The position numbers and the translations under genes are program-made. Positions 1,689-27,243 of a stretch of DNA of 64,000 nt are shown here, in pieces. Positions within the stretch are counted from its first letter, which is position 1; every line of letters starts with the position of its first letter. The notes beneath the pieces are model-generated. The model was not told the DNA's origin. It searched no databases and saw only the letters and a program-made list of their open reading frames with translations. This DNA is from Phenylobacterium soli (GTDB taxonomy: Bacteria; Pseudomonadota; Alphaproteobacteria; Caulobacterales; Caulobacteraceae), in contig NZ_QFYQ01000001.1 of NCBI RefSeq assembly GCF_003254475.1, positions 1,116,001-1,180,000 on the forward strand, written 5' to 3'.

Positions 1689-3014
1689 TCAGTCCTCCTC
1701 GATGAGGCTGGTGCGGTTGGTGTTGCGCAGCCGCGCCGCCACCACGGCCGCCGCGGCCATGACTAGGGCCACATAGACGTAGAAGGCGCTCTCGTGGCCG
1801 GCCTTCTTCAGCCAGCCCGCCGCATATTCCGCGGTGCCGCCGAACAGGGCGTTGGCGATGGCGTAGGGCAGGGCGACGCCCAGCGCCCGCACGTGGGTCG
1901 GGAAGAGCTCGGCCTTCACCGCCGCGTTCACCGCCGCATAGCCCGAGTGACAGAGGATCAGCAGCAGCACGAGCCCGAAGGCGGCCGCCGCGCTGCCCGC
2001 TCCGGCGATCGCCGTCATCACCGGATAGGTCGCCAGGGCGCCGAGCCCCAGGCCGACGGCCATGGTGGTCTTGCGCCCCACCCGATCAGAGAGCCAGCCG
2101 ACCAGCGGCTGCAGCAGCATGTAGATCACCAGCACCGCCGCCATCACCTGGGTCGAGGCGTCCTTGGACAGGCCGGTGGTGTTGACCAGGAATTTCGGCA
2201 TGTAGGTCGTGTAGGCGTAGAAGCTGAGCGAGCCGGCCGAGGTCAGGACGAAGATCGCGCCGACTTCCCGCGGATGGCTGCGGATCATGGCCAGGGTGTC
2301 GCCGCGCCGCCGCTCCGGCTGGGCCTGGGCGCGCAGGTAGGAGCTGCTCTCGGCGATGCCGGTGCGGATCCAGAACACCACCACTGCCAGCAGCCCGCCC
2401 ACCGCGAAGGGCACGCGCCAGCCCCAGGCCTCCAGCGCCGGCTTGGCCAGCACCGCCTGCAGGATGAGGATCACCACCAGGGCGAAGAGCTGGCCGGCGA
2501 CCAGGGTCACATAGTGGAACGAGGACCAGAAGCCCCGGCGCCTGTGGCCCGCCATCTCGGAGAGGTAGGTGGCGCTCGCGCCATATTCCCCGCCTAGCGA
2601 CAGGCCCTGCACCAGGCGCGCGGCCAGCAGGCCGAGCTGGGCCCAGACGCCGGCCTGGGCATAGGTCGGCAGGATGGCGATGGCGAAGGAGCCGAGGCTC
2701 ATCAGCGCCACCGAGGCGGTCAGGGCCGTGCGGCGTCCGGCGCGGTCGGCGAACACGCCCATCAGCCAGGCGCCCAGCGGGCGGGCGATGAACCCCGCGC
2801 CGAAGATGGCCGCGGTCTGCAGCTGCTGGTCGACCGCATCGCCGTGCGGGAAGAAGTGCCTGGCGAAATAGAGGCTGGCGTAGGAGTAGGCGAACCAGTC
2901 GTACCACTCGACCAGGTTGCCCGCCGATCCGCCGAGGATCGCCTTGATGCGCTGAAGCGGCGACATGGCCGTCACGCCACGCGCCGCTTCATCTGCCGTT
3001 TGGCTGGCCGCCAT
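1689..3014 (-). CDS. MFS transporter, metabolite:H+ symporter (KgtP/ProP-like) subfamily
   Basis: A 441-residue permease with twelve predicted membrane segments. Its N-terminus has the MHS-subfamily signature GNLVEWYDWF, where the family senses organic acids or compatible solutes. The cytoplasmic loop motifs GVFADRAGRRTA (loop 2-3) and GWLSDRVGRKTTM (loop 8-9) are intact. The family imports dicarboxylates, alpha-ketoglutarate, proline/betaine or aromatic acids with protons. The substrate cannot be read from the sequence. It is followed directly by the DUF599 gene. Confidence 0.88.
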   Translation of the reverse strand: MAASQTADEAARGVTAMSPLQRIKAILGGSAGNLVEWYDWFAYSYASLYFARHFFPHGDAVDQQLQTAAIFGAGFIARPLGAWLMGVFADRAGRRTALTASVALMSLGSFAIAILPTYAQAGVWAQLGLLAARLVQGLSLGGEYGASATYLSEMAGHRRRGFWSSFHYVTLVAGQLFALVVILILQAVLAKPALEAWGWRVPFAVGGLLAVVVFWIRTGIAESSSYLRAQAQPERRRGDTLAMIRSHPREVGAIFVLTSAGSLSFYAYTTYMPKFLVNTTGLSKDASTQVMAAVLVIYMLLQPLVGWLSDRVGRKTTMAVGLGLGALATYPVMTAIAGAGSAAAAFGLVLLLILCHSGYAAVNAAVKAELFPTHVRALGVALPYAIANALFGGTAEYAAGWLKKAGHESAFYVYVALVMAAAAVVAARLRNTNRTSLIEED

Positions 3015-3076
3015 GCATCCCCCGCTCTGTTGCGGCGATGCTAGCGGCCCTCGCGCTCAAGCCAAAGAGGCGAGCG

Positions 3077-3235
3077 CTAGATCCGGCCCATCAGGACCAG
3101 GACGATGATGATCACCAGGATCAAGCCGAGGCCGCCGGATGGGTAGTAGCCCCAGCCGCGGCTGTAGCCCCAGTTCGGCAGGGCGCCGATCAGGGCCAGG
3201 ATCAGGATGATGATCAGGATGGTGCCAAGGCCCAA
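3077..3235 (-). CDS. DUF3309 family small membrane protein
   Basis: A 52-codon gene starting at TTG, with a good ribosome binding site (AAGGAGAG) 5 bases before it. The product is two hydrophobic helices (LGLGTILIIILILALIGALP and a C-terminal LILVIIIVLVLMGRI) joined by a glycine/tyrosine loop (WGYSRGWGYYPSGG). This is the typical layout of DUF3309 proteins, which are abundant in Alphaproteobacteria and have no known function. The non-ATG start and short length make it easy to miss. Confidence 0.85.
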   Translation of the reverse strand: MGLGTILIIILILALIGALPNWGYSRGWGYYPSGGLGLILVIIIVLVLMGRI

Positions 3236-3334
3236 CGCTTCTCTCCTTCGTGTCACGTCCCGACTTGGCCGTTCCAGAACGGACGGCCCAAAGCGGAGGT
3301 TCCGGAGAAGAAGCGCTGTGGCCTGCGGCCGGAG

Positions 3335-3739
3335 TCAGTCGGCCGCGTCGGCGGTGTGGAAGCGGGCCTCGGTGTCCTTCACCCCGATGGCGTACATCAG
3401 GCCGATCCAGCCGCCCTTGATGCGCGGCAGGGCCGTCAGGGTGATCGCCGCCAGGGCCGACAGGATGATCGGCAGCGAGTAGAGCGGGTTCGATTCCCAG
3501 ACGATCGGGAAGAACAGCATCGGCGCGACGATCAGGTGGCCGGTGACGAGGATCGTCAGATAGGCCGGGCCGTCGTCGGCTGGGTAGCGCGCCAGGTCGT
3601 GGTCGCAGGCCTCGCAGCGGCTGGAGACCTTCAGGTACTTCCAGAACAGCCGGCCCTTGCCGCACGAGGGGCAGCGGCCCGTCAGGCCCCGCATGACCGA
3701 GGGGCCGATCGGATGAGCGGTTTCACGCATGAGCGCCAT
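3335..3739 (-). CDS. DUF983 family protein with zinc-ribbon-like cysteines
   Basis: A 134-residue protein with an N-terminal cysteine pair set (CPSC at residues 23-26 and CEAC at 42-45), followed by two membrane segments (about 58-80 and 86-105). This is the DUF983 pattern found in Alphaproteobacteria, sometimes near cytochrome oxidase genes. Its function is unknown; a small membrane protein with a metal-binding cytoplasmic head is the most one can say. ATG start. The alternative internal ATG at codon 16 would keep both cysteine pairs. Confidence 0.82.
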   Translation of the reverse strand: MALMRETAHPIGPSVMRGLTGRCPSCGKGRLFWKYLKVSSRCEACDHDLARYPADDGPAYLTILVTGHLIVAPMLFFPIVWESNPLYSLPIILSALAAITLTALPRIKGGWIGLMYAIGVKDTEARFHTADAAD

Positions 3740-23168: not shown

Positions 23169-24071
23169 TCAGGCCTTCGGGCGCGAGGCCCACTGGGCGA
23201 GCACCACGCCGGACAGCGCCACCGCCGCGCCGAGCGCCTGCATGTGGCCGATCGCCTCGCCGAACAGCACATAGCCGAGCCAGGCGGCGACCACCGGCTG
23301 CACCAGCACCACCACGGAGGCGGTCGAGGTAGGCAGGCGGCCCATGGCCCAGGCGATCGAGCCCTGGCCGGCCACATGCATCAGCCCGAGCCCCGCGCAG
23401 GCGGCCCAGCCGGCGGCCCCCAGCGGGATGATCTGCTCGCGGAGCAGCAGGGCGGCGACGAGCAGCAGGGGCGTGCCGACGACGCTCGACCAGAACATCA
23501 GGCTCGACGCGCCCTCGCGTTTGCGGCCCTCGCCGATGGCGATCATGTAGAGGGCGTACCAGATGGCCGTGGTCGCCGAGAGGATGTTGCCGACCGGCGG
23601 GTTGACGCCCGGACCGCCGCCCTTCTCCAGCGCCATCATCCAGGAGCCGCCGAGCGCCACCGCCACCGCCACCAGGAACAGGGTCCGCGGGCGCTGCTTC
23701 AGGAAGATCCAGGCGAAGGCGGTGACCACGACGGGCGTCAGGTTGGACAGCACCGTGGCGTTGGTCACCGAGGTGTACTTGATGCCGTAGTGCCAGAAGC
23801 CGAGGTCGAGGGCGAACATCAGGCCGGCGATCAGGGCCAGCGGCGAGGGCCGGCTGATCGGACCGTTGGACCGCCGGGTCATCATCGCCAGCAGCGGCAG
23901 GGCGAAGGCCAGGCGCCAGAAGCCAGCCGCCGCCGGCCCCGTCTCGGTCAGCCGCACCAGGATCGGCGAGAGGCCGATCACGCAGGCGCCCATCACCAGC
24001 ACCGCCAGCGCCTGCCAGCGCGGGGCGCCCTCGCCCGCCGCTCCGCCCGCCTTGGCCGTCACGTCCGTCAA
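23169..24071 (-). CDS. EamA-type DMT family transporter
   Basis: A 300-residue inner-membrane protein with ten predicted segments arranged as two EamA repeats (about residues 20-150 and 165-295), each with the family's ending pattern of a GxxLIxxG or PVVAAWLG segment. DMT exporters move amino acids or other metabolites, and the substrate is not evident. Its ATG overlaps the stop of gluQ by 4 bases, so the two genes are translationally coupled. Confidence 0.87.
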   Translation of the reverse strand: MTDVTAKAGGAAGEGAPRWQALAVLVMGACVIGLSPILVRLTETGPAAAGFWRLAFALPLLAMMTRRSNGPISRPSPLALIAGLMFALDLGFWHYGIKYTSVTNATVLSNLTPVVVTAFAWIFLKQRPRTLFLVAVAVALGGSWMMALEKGGGPGVNPPVGNILSATTAIWYALYMIAIGEGRKREGASSLMFWSSVVGTPLLLVAALLLREQIIPLGAAGWAACAGLGLMHVAGQGSIAWAMGRLPTSTASVVVLVQPVVAAWLGYVLFGEAIGHMQALGAAVALSGVVLAQWASRPKA

Positions 24072-24931
24072 AACCCGAGCTCCGTCCGAATCTGAGCGGC
24101 CGTCTTACCCTGCTCGCGCAGATCGCGCAGCGTCTCGCTCCTATCGCGTTTGGCGAACCGCTTGCCGTCGGGTCCGGTGAGCAGCCGGTGGTGGCGATAG
24201 ATGGGCGTCGGCAGGCCGAGCAGCGCCTGCAGCAGGCGCTGGACATGCGCCGCCTCGAACAGGTCCTGGCCGCGCACCACATGGGTGATCCCCTGCAGGG
24301 CGTCGTCGAACACCACCGCCAGGTGATAGGCGACGCCGACGTCCTTGCGGGCCAGCACCACGTCGCCGCCGATCTGCGGCCGCGCCGCGATCACCCCGTG
24401 CTCGCCGTTGGGCCCTTCGCCCTCCTCGACGAAGCTGAGCGTGTCGAAGCCGCCGAGCGTGCGTTCGGCGTGGTCGAGCGACAGCCGCCAGGCATAGGGC
24501 TCGCCGGCCTCGATCCGCCGCGCCTCCTCGGCCGGCGGCAGAGGTTCGCCGCGATAGGCCTCCATGGCGCCGTGCGGGGCGCTCTGGATGGTTTCGGCGA
24601 TCTCCTTGCGGGTCTTGAAGCAGCGGTAGAGGAGGCCCCGCTCCGCCAACTCGCGCAAGGCGCCGGCATAGTCCTCCAGGTGGTCGGACTGGCGCCGCAC
24701 GGGCGTCTCCCAGCTCACCCCCAGCCAGGCCAGGTCCTCGACGAGGGCGGCTTCGAACTCCGGCCGGCATCGCGTCCGGTCGATGTCCTCGATGCGCAGC
24801 AGGAAGCGCCCGCCAAGGGGGTCCGGCGCGGCGCGGGCGGCCTCCCAGGCTGTGAGCGCGGAGAAGGCGTGCCCACGGTGCAGGTAGCCGGTGGGCGAGG
24901 GGGCGAAGCGGGTGACGAAGGTGTTTGTCAC
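24068..24931 (-). CDS. gluQ: Glutamyl-Q tRNA(Asp) synthetase
   Basis: A 287-residue paralog of glutamyl-tRNA synthetase without an anticodon-binding domain. It attaches glutamate to queuosine at the wobble position of tRNA-Asp. The class I signature appears as RFAPSPTGYLHRGHA (residues about 8-22), and a KRFAKRD sequence near 258 takes the place of KMSKS. The usual zinc-cysteine set is reduced, as only the C in YRCFK is seen. The gene precedes an EamA transporter gene with a 4-base overlap. Confidence 0.93.
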   Translation of the reverse strand: MTNTFVTRFAPSPTGYLHRGHAFSALTAWEAARAAPDPLGGRFLLRIEDIDRTRCRPEFEAALVEDLAWLGVSWETPVRRQSDHLEDYAGALRELAERGLLYRCFKTRKEIAETIQSAPHGAMEAYRGEPLPPAEEARRIEAGEPYAWRLSLDHAERTLGGFDTLSFVEEGEGPNGEHGVIAARPQIGGDVVLARKDVGVAYHLAVVFDDALQGITHVVRGQDLFEAAHVQRLLQALLGLPTPIYRHHRLLTGPDGKRFAKRDRSETLRDLREQGKTAAQIRTELGF

Positions 24932-24941
24932 CCCCGCTTGA

Positions 24942-25571
24942 TTAGTCCTCGTGGTGCCCCGGGAACAGGCCCATGTGGGAGAACACGGCCCGCAGGAAGA
25001 GCAGCTCGCCGCCGAGTTCCTGCTTCAGCGGATCGAACTGCTTGAAGCCCGTCATCTCCGCCAGGCCATGGGCGGCGCACCAAGCGGCGATGGTGGCGAG
25101 CTCGAGGTCGACCGTCGCGCCGGGATCGGCGCCGGTCTCGACCAGGGTGTCGCGCACCTTGCAGTAGGCGCTGTCCTCGCCCTTCTGCATGGCCTCGGGC
25201 AGCGCTTCCTTGTCGCGAGCGGTGTCGTACATCACCCGATAGAGGGCCGGGTTGGCGCGGGCGAAGCAGACATAGGCCACGCCCAGGGCGTTCATCGCCG
25301 CCCGCGGAGAGCTTTCGGTCTTGGCCTTGGCCATCGCCGCGTCGAGCATGGTCCAGCCTTCGGAGGCGACCGCGTCGAGCAGCTCTGCCTTGTCCTTGAA
25401 GTGGTGGTAGGGCGCCGCCGGACTGACGCCTGCCTCGCGCGCCACGGCGCGGAGCGACAGGGCCGAGGGGCCCTCGGCCTCGAGGATCCGGCGGGCGGCG
25501 TCGACCAGCGCACGGCGCAGGTCGCCGTGGTGGTAGGGGCGGGCTTCAACGGCGGTTTGAGATTCTCTCAT
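24942..25571 (-). CDS. TetR/AcrR family transcriptional regulator
   Basis: A 209-residue repressor-type protein. The N-terminal helix-turn-helix is at residues about 20-62 (ALSLRAVAREAGVSPAAPYHHFKDK). The C-terminal part resembles the TetR_C_33/WHG ligand-binding domain. A near-perfect 23-bp palindrome lies 30-52 bp upstream of the ATG and overlaps the -35 box of the divergent tiny gene at 25707. The protein probably controls both genes. The ligand is unknown. Confidence 0.88.
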   Translation of the reverse strand: MRESQTAVEARPYHHGDLRRALVDAARRILEAEGPSALSLRAVAREAGVSPAAPYHHFKDKAELLDAVASEGWTMLDAAMAKAKTESSPRAAMNALGVAYVCFARANPALYRVMYDTARDKEALPEAMQKGEDSAYCKVRDTLVETGADPGATVDLELATIAAWCAAHGLAEMTGFKQFDPLKQELGGELLFLRAVFSHMGLFPGHHED

Positions 25572-25600
25572 CGCACCTCCACTTTAATCGATATCTGGAC

Positions 25601-25623
25601 GACGTAAAGATCATCTTGACGTC
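25601..25623. promoter_or_regulatory. Predicted TetR operator, 23-bp palindrome
   Basis: Half-sites GACGTAAAGAT and ATCTTGACGTC flank a central C. The two halves match in all but one base pair. The site covers the -35 hexamer of the tiny-gene promoter (TTGACG from 25616) and lies upstream of the divergent TetR gene, as expected for an autorepressor. Confidence 0.65.
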
Positions 25624-25643
25624 GCTTAGATGGGGATTATCTT
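25616..25643 (+). promoter_or_regulatory. Promoter P1 of tiny membrane-protein gene 1
   Basis: TTGACG (25616-25621), 16-base spacer, TATCTT (25638-25643). It has the same spacer length as P2 and P3, and it lacks the ATGCATTTATG element those two carry. Confidence 0.6.
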
Positions 25644-25706
25644 ATCGTTGTTCAAATAACGAACGCGCCCCGCTCCCCCGGGGATCCAATTCAGGGTGTG
25701 TGCCCC

Positions 25707-25820
25707 ATGTCTCTCGCCAAGATCGCTCGCTTCGAAGGCTTCTTCGACCGCCTCGCCCCGGCCCTCCTCCTCGGCCTGGGACTCGCTTCCGCAGCCGCTC
25801 TGGCCGCCGTCGGCGTGTGA
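25707..25820 (+). CDS. Tiny membrane protein 1 (37 residues)
   Basis: MSLAKIARFEGFFDRLAPAL, then a hydrophobic alanine/leucine helix ending AAVGV. An amphipathic N-terminus with FFDR is followed by a single membrane segment (residues about 17-36). It is a direct paralog of the next gene: the first five codons and the upstream leader (GGTGTGTG, then CCC before the ATG) are shared. The ribosome site is weak (AGGGTG about 8 bases upstream). I recognise no named family. Coding is supported by the duplication, in which amino-acid pattern is conserved although third bases differ. Confidence 0.72.
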   Translation: MSLAKIARFEGFFDRLAPALLLGLGLASAAALAAVGV

Positions 25821-25826
25821 GATCTC

Positions 25827-25864
25827 ATGCATTTATGAATGGCTGCGCTGCAGCAATTCATATG
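25827..25864 (+). promoter_or_regulatory. Upstream element of P2 (copy A)
   Basis: ATGCATTTATGAATGGCTGC then GCTGCAGCAAT starts exactly 38 bp before the P2 -35 box. The same element with a few changes stands exactly 38 bp before the P3 -35 box. Its placement upstream of -35 fits an activator binding site. The dyad TGCATTTATGAAT followed by GCTGCGCTGCAGC has two palindromic parts. Confidence 0.55.
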
Positions 25865-25892
25865 TTGACACTGCTTAAATAGAGCCTATGTA
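25865..25892 (+). promoter_or_regulatory. Promoter P2 of tiny membrane-protein gene 2
   Basis: A consensus TTGACA (25865-25870), 16-base spacer and TATGTA (25887-25892). The AT-rich spacer stands out sharply from the GC-rich genome. Confidence 0.65.
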
Positions 25893-25964
25893 AGCGCCGC
25901 AACAAGAACAGTCCCGCTTCCCCTCTGGGGTTTGGCGGGCGTCCAACTCAAAGGTGTGTGTCCC

Positions 25965-26078
25965 ATGTCTCTCGCCAAACTCTCCAGGTTCGAACGCCTC
26001 TTCGACCGCGTCGCTCCGGCGTTCCTTCTCTTCCTCGGCCTGGCCTCGGCCGCGGCTTTCGCCGCGATCGGCGCCTAA
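25965..26078 (+). CDS. Tiny membrane protein 2 (37 residues)
   Basis: A 37-residue paralog of the gene at 25707: MSLAKLSRFERLFDRVAPAF followed by a single hydrophobic helix ending AAIGA. Differences from gene 1 are conservative (I/L, L/V, A/S) and the length is identical, which indicates selection on protein sequence. The leader keeps the CCAA-CTCA and GGTGTGTG-CCC arrangement, with AAAGGTG as a likely ribosome site. It is followed by an intrinsic terminator-like hairpin. Confidence 0.75.
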   Translation: MSLAKLSRFERLFDRVAPAFLLFLGLASAAAFAAIGA

Positions 26079-26105
26079 ACCTCCCCTTAACTAGGCCGGA
26101 CGTAG

Positions 26106-26131
26106 AGGGGCACCCTTCCGGGGCCCTTTTT
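26106..26131 (+). terminator. Terminator after tiny gene 2
   Basis: AGGG pairs with CCCT around an inner CCC/GGG stem with loop TTCC, followed by TTTTT. It lies 28 bases after the stop codon. Confidence 0.55.
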
Positions 26132-26175
26132 CGTCGTTCCCGTCACTTCGACGGCCCCGACGGTGCGGCGCGTAC

Positions 26176-26206
26176 ATGCATTTATGCATAGCTGCACTGC
26201 AACAAT
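26176..26206 (+). promoter_or_regulatory. Upstream element of P3 (copy B)
   Basis: ATGCATTTATGCATAGCTGC then ACTGCAACAAT. It is the second copy of the element at 25827, again beginning 38 bp before the -35 box. Here the left part is a perfect ATGCAT-TT-ATGCAT dyad. Confidence 0.55.
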
Positions 26207-26213
26207 CGCCATC

Positions 26214-26241
26214 TAGGCACTGTTCAGATTTGTGCTATCTA
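26214..26241 (+). promoter_or_regulatory. Promoter P3 of tiny membrane-protein gene 3
   Basis: TAGGCA (26214-26219), 16-base spacer and TATCTA (26236-26241). The -35 is weaker than in P1/P2, consistent with a need for an activator. Confidence 0.55.
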
Positions 26242-26302
26242 AGCGTTGTCCAGATGGACATGGCGCCGGGTCCCCGGCGTCCCAACCGATAAGGAGCTCG
26301 AC

Positions 26303-26401
26303 ATGATCGCCATGAACCGCGCCCTCGACACCCTCGCCTCGTACGCCCTGGTGTTCCTGGGCCTGGCGCTTGCTGGCGCCACCGCCGCCGTCGGCGCATA
26401 A
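26303..26401 (+). CDS. Tiny membrane protein 3 (32 residues)
   Basis: MIAMNRALDTLASYALVFLG followed by LALAGATAAVGA. It is a diverged member of the same group: a short amphipathic start, one membrane helix and the AAVGA ending shared with genes 1 and 2. It has the clearest ribosome site of the three (AAGGAG, 6 bases before the ATG). A 10-bp stem hairpin follows. Confidence 0.72.
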   Translation: MIAMNRALDTLASYALVFLGLALAGATAAVGA

Positions 26402-26424
26402 GGGCCCGATGCGACGCCGCTAGA

Positions 26425-26454
26425 GCCTCGCCCGCGCATCCCACCGGGCGAGGC
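26425..26454 (+). terminator. Strong hairpin after tiny gene 3
   Basis: GCCTCGCCCG and CGGGCGAGGC form a perfect 10-bp stem with a 10-base loop, 23 bases after the stop. There is no T-run, so it may stabilise the 3' end rather than end transcription by itself. Confidence 0.5.
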
Positions 26455-26682: not shown

Positions 26683-27243
26683 ATGGAGGTGCTTAGCCGC
26701 CCGCCGTCCGGCTGGCCCGCTCTGGTGCTGAACGCCGATTTCCGCCCCTTGTCCTACTACCCCCTGTCGCTCTGGCCGTGGCAGGAGGTGATCAAGGCGG
26801 TGTTCCTCGACCGCGTCGACGTGGTCTCGACCTACGACCAGATGGTCCACTCGCCGTCCTTCGAGATGCGGCTGCCGAGCGTGGTCTCGCTCAAGCACTA
26901 CGTGGCCCAGGACCGGCCGCCGGCCTTCACGCGCTTCAACCTGTTCCTGCGCGACAGCTTCACCTGCCAGTACTGCGCCTCGACCGAGGAGCTGACCTTC
27001 GACCACGTCATCCCGCGTTCGCGCGGCGGCCGCACCACGTGGGAGAACATCGTCACCGCCTGCGCCCGCTGCAACCTGATGAAGGGCGGCCGCACGCCGG
27101 CCGAGGCGGTCATGCACCCGCGCCACAAGCCGCGCCGCCCCTCGACCTTCGAGCTGCAGGAGCACGGCCGCCGCTTCCCGCCGCACCACCTGCACGAAAG
27201 CTGGCTCGACTACCTCTACTGGGACATCGAGCTGGAGGCCTAG
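26683..27243 (+). CDS. HNH endonuclease family protein
   Basis: A 186-residue protein with a central HNH/McrA-type zinc site: CQYC near residue 98, then [11 protein letters not shown] with the metal/catalytic His, N in WENIVTAC, and a second cysteine pair CARC. The N-terminus ([23 protein letters not shown]) and this length match a group found throughout Alphaproteobacteria as a chromosomal housekeeping-like gene. DNA cleavage is inferred from the motif only. ATG start; not part of an obvious mobile unit. Confidence 0.87.

Follow-up and report, generated by a model that had tools for sequence, protein, structure and literature searches.

In the 64,000-nucleotide stretch of the Phenylobacterium soli genome analysed here (the window), three tandem genes for tiny single-helix membrane proteins and a divergent TetR-family gene appear to constitute a one-regulator module. 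TetR likely represses its own gene and the adjacent small genes through palindromes overlapping their promoters; we give this reading a probability of roughly two in three. Repression by TetR as such we infer with high confidence, and conservation lends strong support to the regulatory part. An unnamed protein family found in Caulobacter, a model genus, is thereby defined together with its likely regulator and operator, so that a single knockout and a single reporter would put an orphan small membrane protein to a direct test.

Genes A (25707-25820, 37 aa), B (25965-26078, 37 aa) and C (26303-26401, 32 aa), all on the plus strand, lie where an earlier note on this DNA had placed three tandem open reading frames of 37, 37 and 32 codons, and their conservation marks them as real genes. 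The note had called the first two duplicates. Indeed, A with its leader and B with its leader form a 121-nt direct repeat of 78% identity, and the divergence between them is mostly synonymous (dN 0.18, dS 0.86, dN/dS ~0.2), in line with the conservative change it described. The C-terminal ends it listed (AAVGV, AAIGA and AAVGA) match the letters of A, B and C. The 16-base spacers were likewise found in all three hexamer pairs, TTGACG/TATCTT (A), TTGACA/TATGTA (B) and TAGGCA/TATCTA (C), supporting its proposal of a separate promoter for each gene. A generic sigma-70 scan reports promoter A alone of the three, and the -35 box of C is poor. The description of the promoters as duplicated holds in part: those of B and C form a 71-nt repeat of 72% identity, whereas promoter A is of a different class. 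A terminator-like hairpin with a T run follows gene B on the plus strand (26104-26131); it is predicted by folding, and a scan did not report it. The locus has two neighbours conserved in synteny, a class I Glu/Gln tRNA-synthetase-like gene (24068-24931, minus strand; PF00749; GluQ-type by eye) and an HNH endonuclease gene (26683-27243, plus strand; PF01844).

The -35 and -10 boxes sit inside 19-bp palindromes with the consensus ATCTGAACGCCGTTCAGAT (24 bits), which extend to the divergent TetR gene (24942-25571, minus strand; Pfam matches to TetR_N and TetR_C_33), a likely repressor. Sites were scored with a matrix of 114 distinct sites from relatives and their reverse complements, with the window left out. 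Promoter A has three operator-like sites, spaced 20 and 26 bp: O1 on the tetR side (25593-25611, 22.9 bits), O2 containing the -35 box at 25616-25621 (25613-25631, 25.5 bits) and O3 overlapping the -10 box at 25638-25643 (25639-25657, 15.7 bits). Promoter C has O2 (26211-26229, 25.7 bits) over its weak -35 box (26214-26219) and O3 (26237-26255, 25.6 bits) overlapping its -10 box (26236-26241), in the same 26-bp register as A. Promoter B keeps a weaker O2 (25862-25880, 18.0 bits) containing its -35 box (25865-25870); at its -10 box, read from the letters at 25887-25892, O3 is decayed or lost, and B may therefore be less repressed. The operator-like repeats at the locus exceed chance: all six sites of at least 13 bits in the window fall at 25593-26255 (scores 15.7-25.7), the best score in the rest of it is 7.0, and five shuffles peak at 6.5. 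The candidate palindromic operators thus overlap the boxes of the promoters they would control. The promoters had been noticed earlier, but the shared TetR-type operators, the invariant divergent TetR and a second palindrome of B and C (see below) were absent from that description, whose interval (25601-26454) splits the first operator and excludes the TetR gene.

Orthologs of the A type have the same operator layout by eye, with O2 lost in some. Of the 35 further family genes located downstream of A, a count that takes in B and C of the window, 33 have one or more sites of at least 12 bits and 23 have two or more. In the PDB the nearest match to the TetR protein is 3on2, annotated as a 'probable transcriptional regulator'. 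Control by LexA was considered as another possibility. A LexA-type site is GTTC-N7-GTTC, and SidA, the SOS-induced small division inhibitor of Caulobacter, is also a small inner-membrane protein from the same bacterial family; unlike SidA, the small-protein locus here has no such site, within one mismatch, between 22816 and 31302, and LexA/SOS control was rejected.

The association between regulator and small protein is close to invariant. Of 149 Caulobacteraceae genomes, 86 have TetR (E up to 1e-30) and 81 have the small protein; in all 81 the small protein divergently adjoins TetR, and it was never found without it. The gap between the matched stretches is 131-424 bp (median 176). On inspection, operator sites together with a small hydrophobic ORF were seen in each of the five genomes with TetR only (G107, G034, G174, G070, G097). 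When up to 3 mismatches are allowed, 69 of the 149 Caulobacteraceae genomes and 7 of 385 from the class contain the double operator, and a reversed control pattern gave no hit in either set among the matches listed. Of the 30 family loci among the matches listed, 29 have a small hydrophobic ORF next to the operator; the thirtieth genome (G172) has one by profile. Across named genomes, an exact double-operator pattern was found in 104 stretches, 80 of which were examined; because the two genome sets overlap, these counts are not independent of those for the family genomes. Within the 80, the small protein comes directly next in 76, mostly from Phenylobacterium and Caulobacter, and a TetR motif stands on the opposite side in 78. 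Of the four exceptions, L211 has no TetR and is probably a chance match, L241 is at a contig end, L277 has an RPE65 gene and is the same record as G285, and L266 has a DoxX-like gene (by eye), its TetR side lying outside the stretch examined. So strict a one-to-one pairing (81 of 81) would also be expected if the small protein were TetR's own feedback partner at the membrane, sequestering the regulator or sensing for it. We consider this very unlikely: up to 400 nt from the operator, none of the six RPE65-type loci described below has a small hydrophobic ORF resembling the family (L118 has an unrelated 24-aa ORF), and dispersed copies of the small gene lie far from tetR.

We then characterised the small proteins themselves. 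A search with B alone (E up to 1) gave matches in 55 of the 60 genomes of the genus and in 81 of the 149 of Caulobacteraceae, the weakest of which may be due to chance; a profile of a 60-row alignment (E up to 0.001) likewise finds the protein in 81 of the 149. In the searched genomes outside Caulobacteraceae no family member was found. The consensus is MSLxxxxAFERxFDRxAxxxLLxLGLxxAGAxxxVGx, with M1 and D14 invariant, E10, R15 and A31 nearly so, and a conserved helix rich in Ala and Gly. Gene C is a more distant member, matching the profile at E 2.8e-8 (with C itself among the 60 rows) and at E 1e-6 when C is excluded; its type, shorter and by eye MNRxLDxxxSxAxxxLxLTLAGATAxxGA, is found downstream of A in many genus members. 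AlphaFold, run on B with the family alignment, predicts one helix (residues 3-36, mean pLDDT 93), which supports the single hydrophobic helix of the earlier note, and the best 19-residue membrane stretch by hydropathy is the C-terminal end in A, B and C. With fewer than 50 aa, one hydrophobic helix and a conserved frame, they are small single-helix membrane proteins, their insertion into the membrane being predicted.

Conservation in relatives had been proposed as a check on the three genes, and the reading frame is kept across Caulobacteraceae. As for frameshifts or stops, which would count against coding, the frame is kept in most genomes, but in 4 of 81 (G060, G104, G120, G078) the matched stretch has a stop; G120 and G104 encode a 35-aa version terminating two codons early. 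For 19 MSLA-type 37-aa orthologs, a set from which orthologs of other length or not starting with MSLA were excluded, median pN/pS is 0.71 over 169 pairs (2 of 171 dropped), with 14% not below 1 and synonymous sites near saturation. A 34-aa set of nine sequences gave a median of 0.49 over 35 pairs.

As in the earlier note, no named family was recognised. Models from Pfam, NCBIfam and PADLOC gave no match to A, B or C (up to E 10, 10 and 1, respectively), and there was no Rfam match above gathering score; a known protein, defence or RNA family was rejected on these grounds. Searches of open-access literature showed no paper on this small-protein family or TetR switch among the matches listed. 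The profile searches bear on a reading of the small proteins as membrane peptides akin to type I toxins, which TetR would keep silent and whose release would slow growth. Their size, single helix and tandem copies are like those of Ldr/TisB-type toxins, and arrays of three recur in four other loci (L007, L012, L015, L018). Nevertheless, the missing Rfam and PADLOC matches speak against such toxins, and the SD-like sequence and conserved leader suggest that translation is intended. A scan for an antisense promoter-like site finds none, but the same scan misses promoters B and C. Altogether, we regard a toxin as unlikely.

Promoters of the B and C type carry a further palindrome, ATGC-N6-GCAT, located at 25827-25840 for B (one mismatch) and at 26176-26189 for C (ATGCATTTATGCAT). 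Allowing up to 1 mismatch, it is found 121-147 nt before the start in 27 of 34 B/C-type promoters (the window's two included, L054 dropped), and it is present in 17 of 20 dispersed promoters (L086, L094, L098, L108 and L112 dropped) and in 1 of 76 A promoters, compared with 3-4% in shuffles. This distribution suggests a second regulator for B and C.

The leader of A has a different element, a candidate 5'-leader hairpin with a CUCCCC loop (25668-25683, plus strand). Covariation was analysed on 33 leaders, namely 32 distinct A-ortholog leaders of up to 51 nt (from 76, with identical and longer ones removed) and the window's own. The loop is mostly CUCCCC among them; such a C-rich loop is reminiscent of the anti-SD loops in alphaproteobacterial sRNAs. 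Paired cells make up 88.1% of the hairpin, compared with 74.6% after shuffling and at most 62.1% when the hairpin is slid, and double changes number 20 against 4.0 in shuffles; none of 500 shuffles reaches either measure. Two of the five hairpin measures are weaker, being reached by 31 and 25 of 500 shuffles. RNAalifold retains just three pairs, the lowest-energy fold of the window's leader taken singly is another pairing, and in Caulobacter the hairpin is absent from many leaders.

The same kind of switch was found with other outputs. In six class genomes outside Caulobacteraceae (G204, G285, G315, G419, G436, G504) the double operator is flanked by a homologous TetR and, opposite it, by an RPE65 (carotenoid oxygenase) gene, with PF03055 confirmed in all six. 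The TetR proteins share 41-47% identity with the window's over 164-179 aligned residues. RPE65 is the first gene after the operator in five of the six; in G436 it is second, after a 166-aa membrane protein. The surroundings in G285 resemble those of the window's locus, with gluQ next to TetR and, in G285 at ~3.5 kb past the operator, an HNH gene. In G202 and G196, where the sites are weaker, the neighbour of TetR is RPE65 as well. Among 29 loci of TetR relatives examined, 14 have a site of at least 13 bits: seven face RPE65, one belongs to Caulobacteraceae, and the remaining six have different genes opposite, which by eye include membrane proteins; the alternative output is therefore not always RPE65.

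Homologous TetR genes and similar operators thus occur beside RPE65 in several alphaproteobacterial families (L117-L119, L121-L123, L180, L203), and several of these RPE65 proteins have twin-arginine-like N-termini by eye. Three small-genome genus members (G034, G048, G107) have a second double operator, which in each stands ahead of a gene for a DUF418-type membrane protein (L185, operator at 2001-2045 and gene at 2087-3352; also L186 and L187); PF04235 was tested in one of the three. RPE65 was also considered as a present-day target in the genome from which the window comes, and rejected: neither of its two RPE65 genes has a site of at least 5 bits within 1.5 kb, so a carotenoid-type ligand is only a guess.

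Family members can also be dispersed within a genome. G192 has four, in loci with different neighbours (L089-L092) that match one another at 75-88%; in G159, L093 and L095 match at 84%, and in G050, L085 and L087 match at 80%. The L089/L090 match covers 295 bp and the L093/L095 match 297 bp, from the palindrome through the gene to terminator-like sequences. L090 and L095, from different genomes, are 95% identical over 420 bp and are probably the same locus in two genomes. Several of the family matches in G050 are at contig ends. No terminal inverted repeats or target-site duplications were seen by eye at the dispersed copies. Upstream regions in L085-L109 carry ATGC-N6-GCAT. A second locus recurs in L097, L104, L105 and L109, where an asd-like gene and a RarD/EamA-like gene (both by eye) are followed by a small family protein.

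Tentatively, and with somewhat less than even confidence, we suggest from these comparisons that a TetR switch conserved in alphaproteobacteria kept its chromosomal neighbourhood while its output was exchanged, a new family of single-helix membrane peptides taking the place of carotenoid-oxygenase-type enzymes. These peptides would have become obligatory effectors of the switch in Caulobacteraceae and, in some genomes, spread as self-contained units of ~295 bp that comprise promoter, operator, gene and terminator. Such dispersed units illustrate how an entire transcription unit of tiny size can multiply in a genome. The shared operator offers a handle on the inducer, since elsewhere a switch of this kind faces an RPE65 enzyme.

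The proposed mechanism is as follows. TetR would bind the palindromes overlapping the promoters and hold tetR and the small genes off until a ligand, probably hydrophobic, releases it. A simple strong promoter would then drive gene A, whose leader hairpin may help to stabilise the mRNA or to promote its translation, and genes B and C would need an additional factor acting at ATGC-N6-GCAT. The peptides are predicted to insert with the N-terminus in, which would place the FERxxDR segment on the cytoplasmic side of the membrane; for C the topology is uncertain, its N-terminal charge being 0. Through the Ala/Gly-rich helix they could pack against membrane partners or one another and so tune the membrane during the inducing stress. 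Such a putative membrane-modulating role is the most likely one for the small proteins.

Packing against a partner could take a narrower form, in which the small protein would serve a single transporter or membrane enzyme, encoded elsewhere, as an accessory subunit like AcrZ. The precedent of AcrZ (PMC7267776), the conserved Ala/Gly-rich helix and the DUF418 gene under the same double operator (Pfam tested in one of three) would suit it. Yet in the loci read no transporter is a regular neighbour apart from an EamA gene, which lies on the side of tetR. In addition, one genome has nine matches, which would be unusual for a stoichiometric subunit, although some of them are at contig ends and may represent a single copy seen twice. 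We consider such a subunit rather unlikely.

Among known systems, the closest effector models are YohP-like membrane tuning (PMC12719787) and AcrZ-like partner binding (PMC7267776). YohP, DinQ and AcrZ of E. coli are likewise described as short inner-membrane proteins with a single helix, several of them inducible; the likeness is one of description, and the Phenylobacterium/Caulobacter family differs in having an adjacent TetR with tandem operators. Divergent autoregulatory TetR/AcrR pairs share the divergent gene and the palindromes across both promoters, whereas the output here is a single-helix peptide rather than a pump or enzyme, and O1, O2 and O3 are spaced 20 and 26 bp. TetR-RPE65 loci of other alphaproteobacteria have a homologous TetR and the same kind of operator pair 26 bp apart, but their output is the RPE65 enzyme, in contrast to the small proteins of Caulobacteraceae. 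Ribosome profiling of C. crescentus added 94 new CDSs, the majority of less than 50 aa, with roles described as largely unexplored (PMC4117421).

Finally, possible further sites were sought in the window's own genome. The operator pattern with at most 1 mismatch gave nine matches, six in the locus and three elsewhere, the latter scoring 9.8 bits, 10.1 bits and under 5. Four looser sites were inspected, three of which look intergenic: one of 14.4 bits, one of 12.9 bits near a GCS2 gene and one of 19.9 bits (L082 2699-2717; C1:343698-343716), located 200 bases before a penicillin-binding-protein gene (Transgly and Transpeptidase). The last, as strong as the site of promoter B, may be an extra TetR target.
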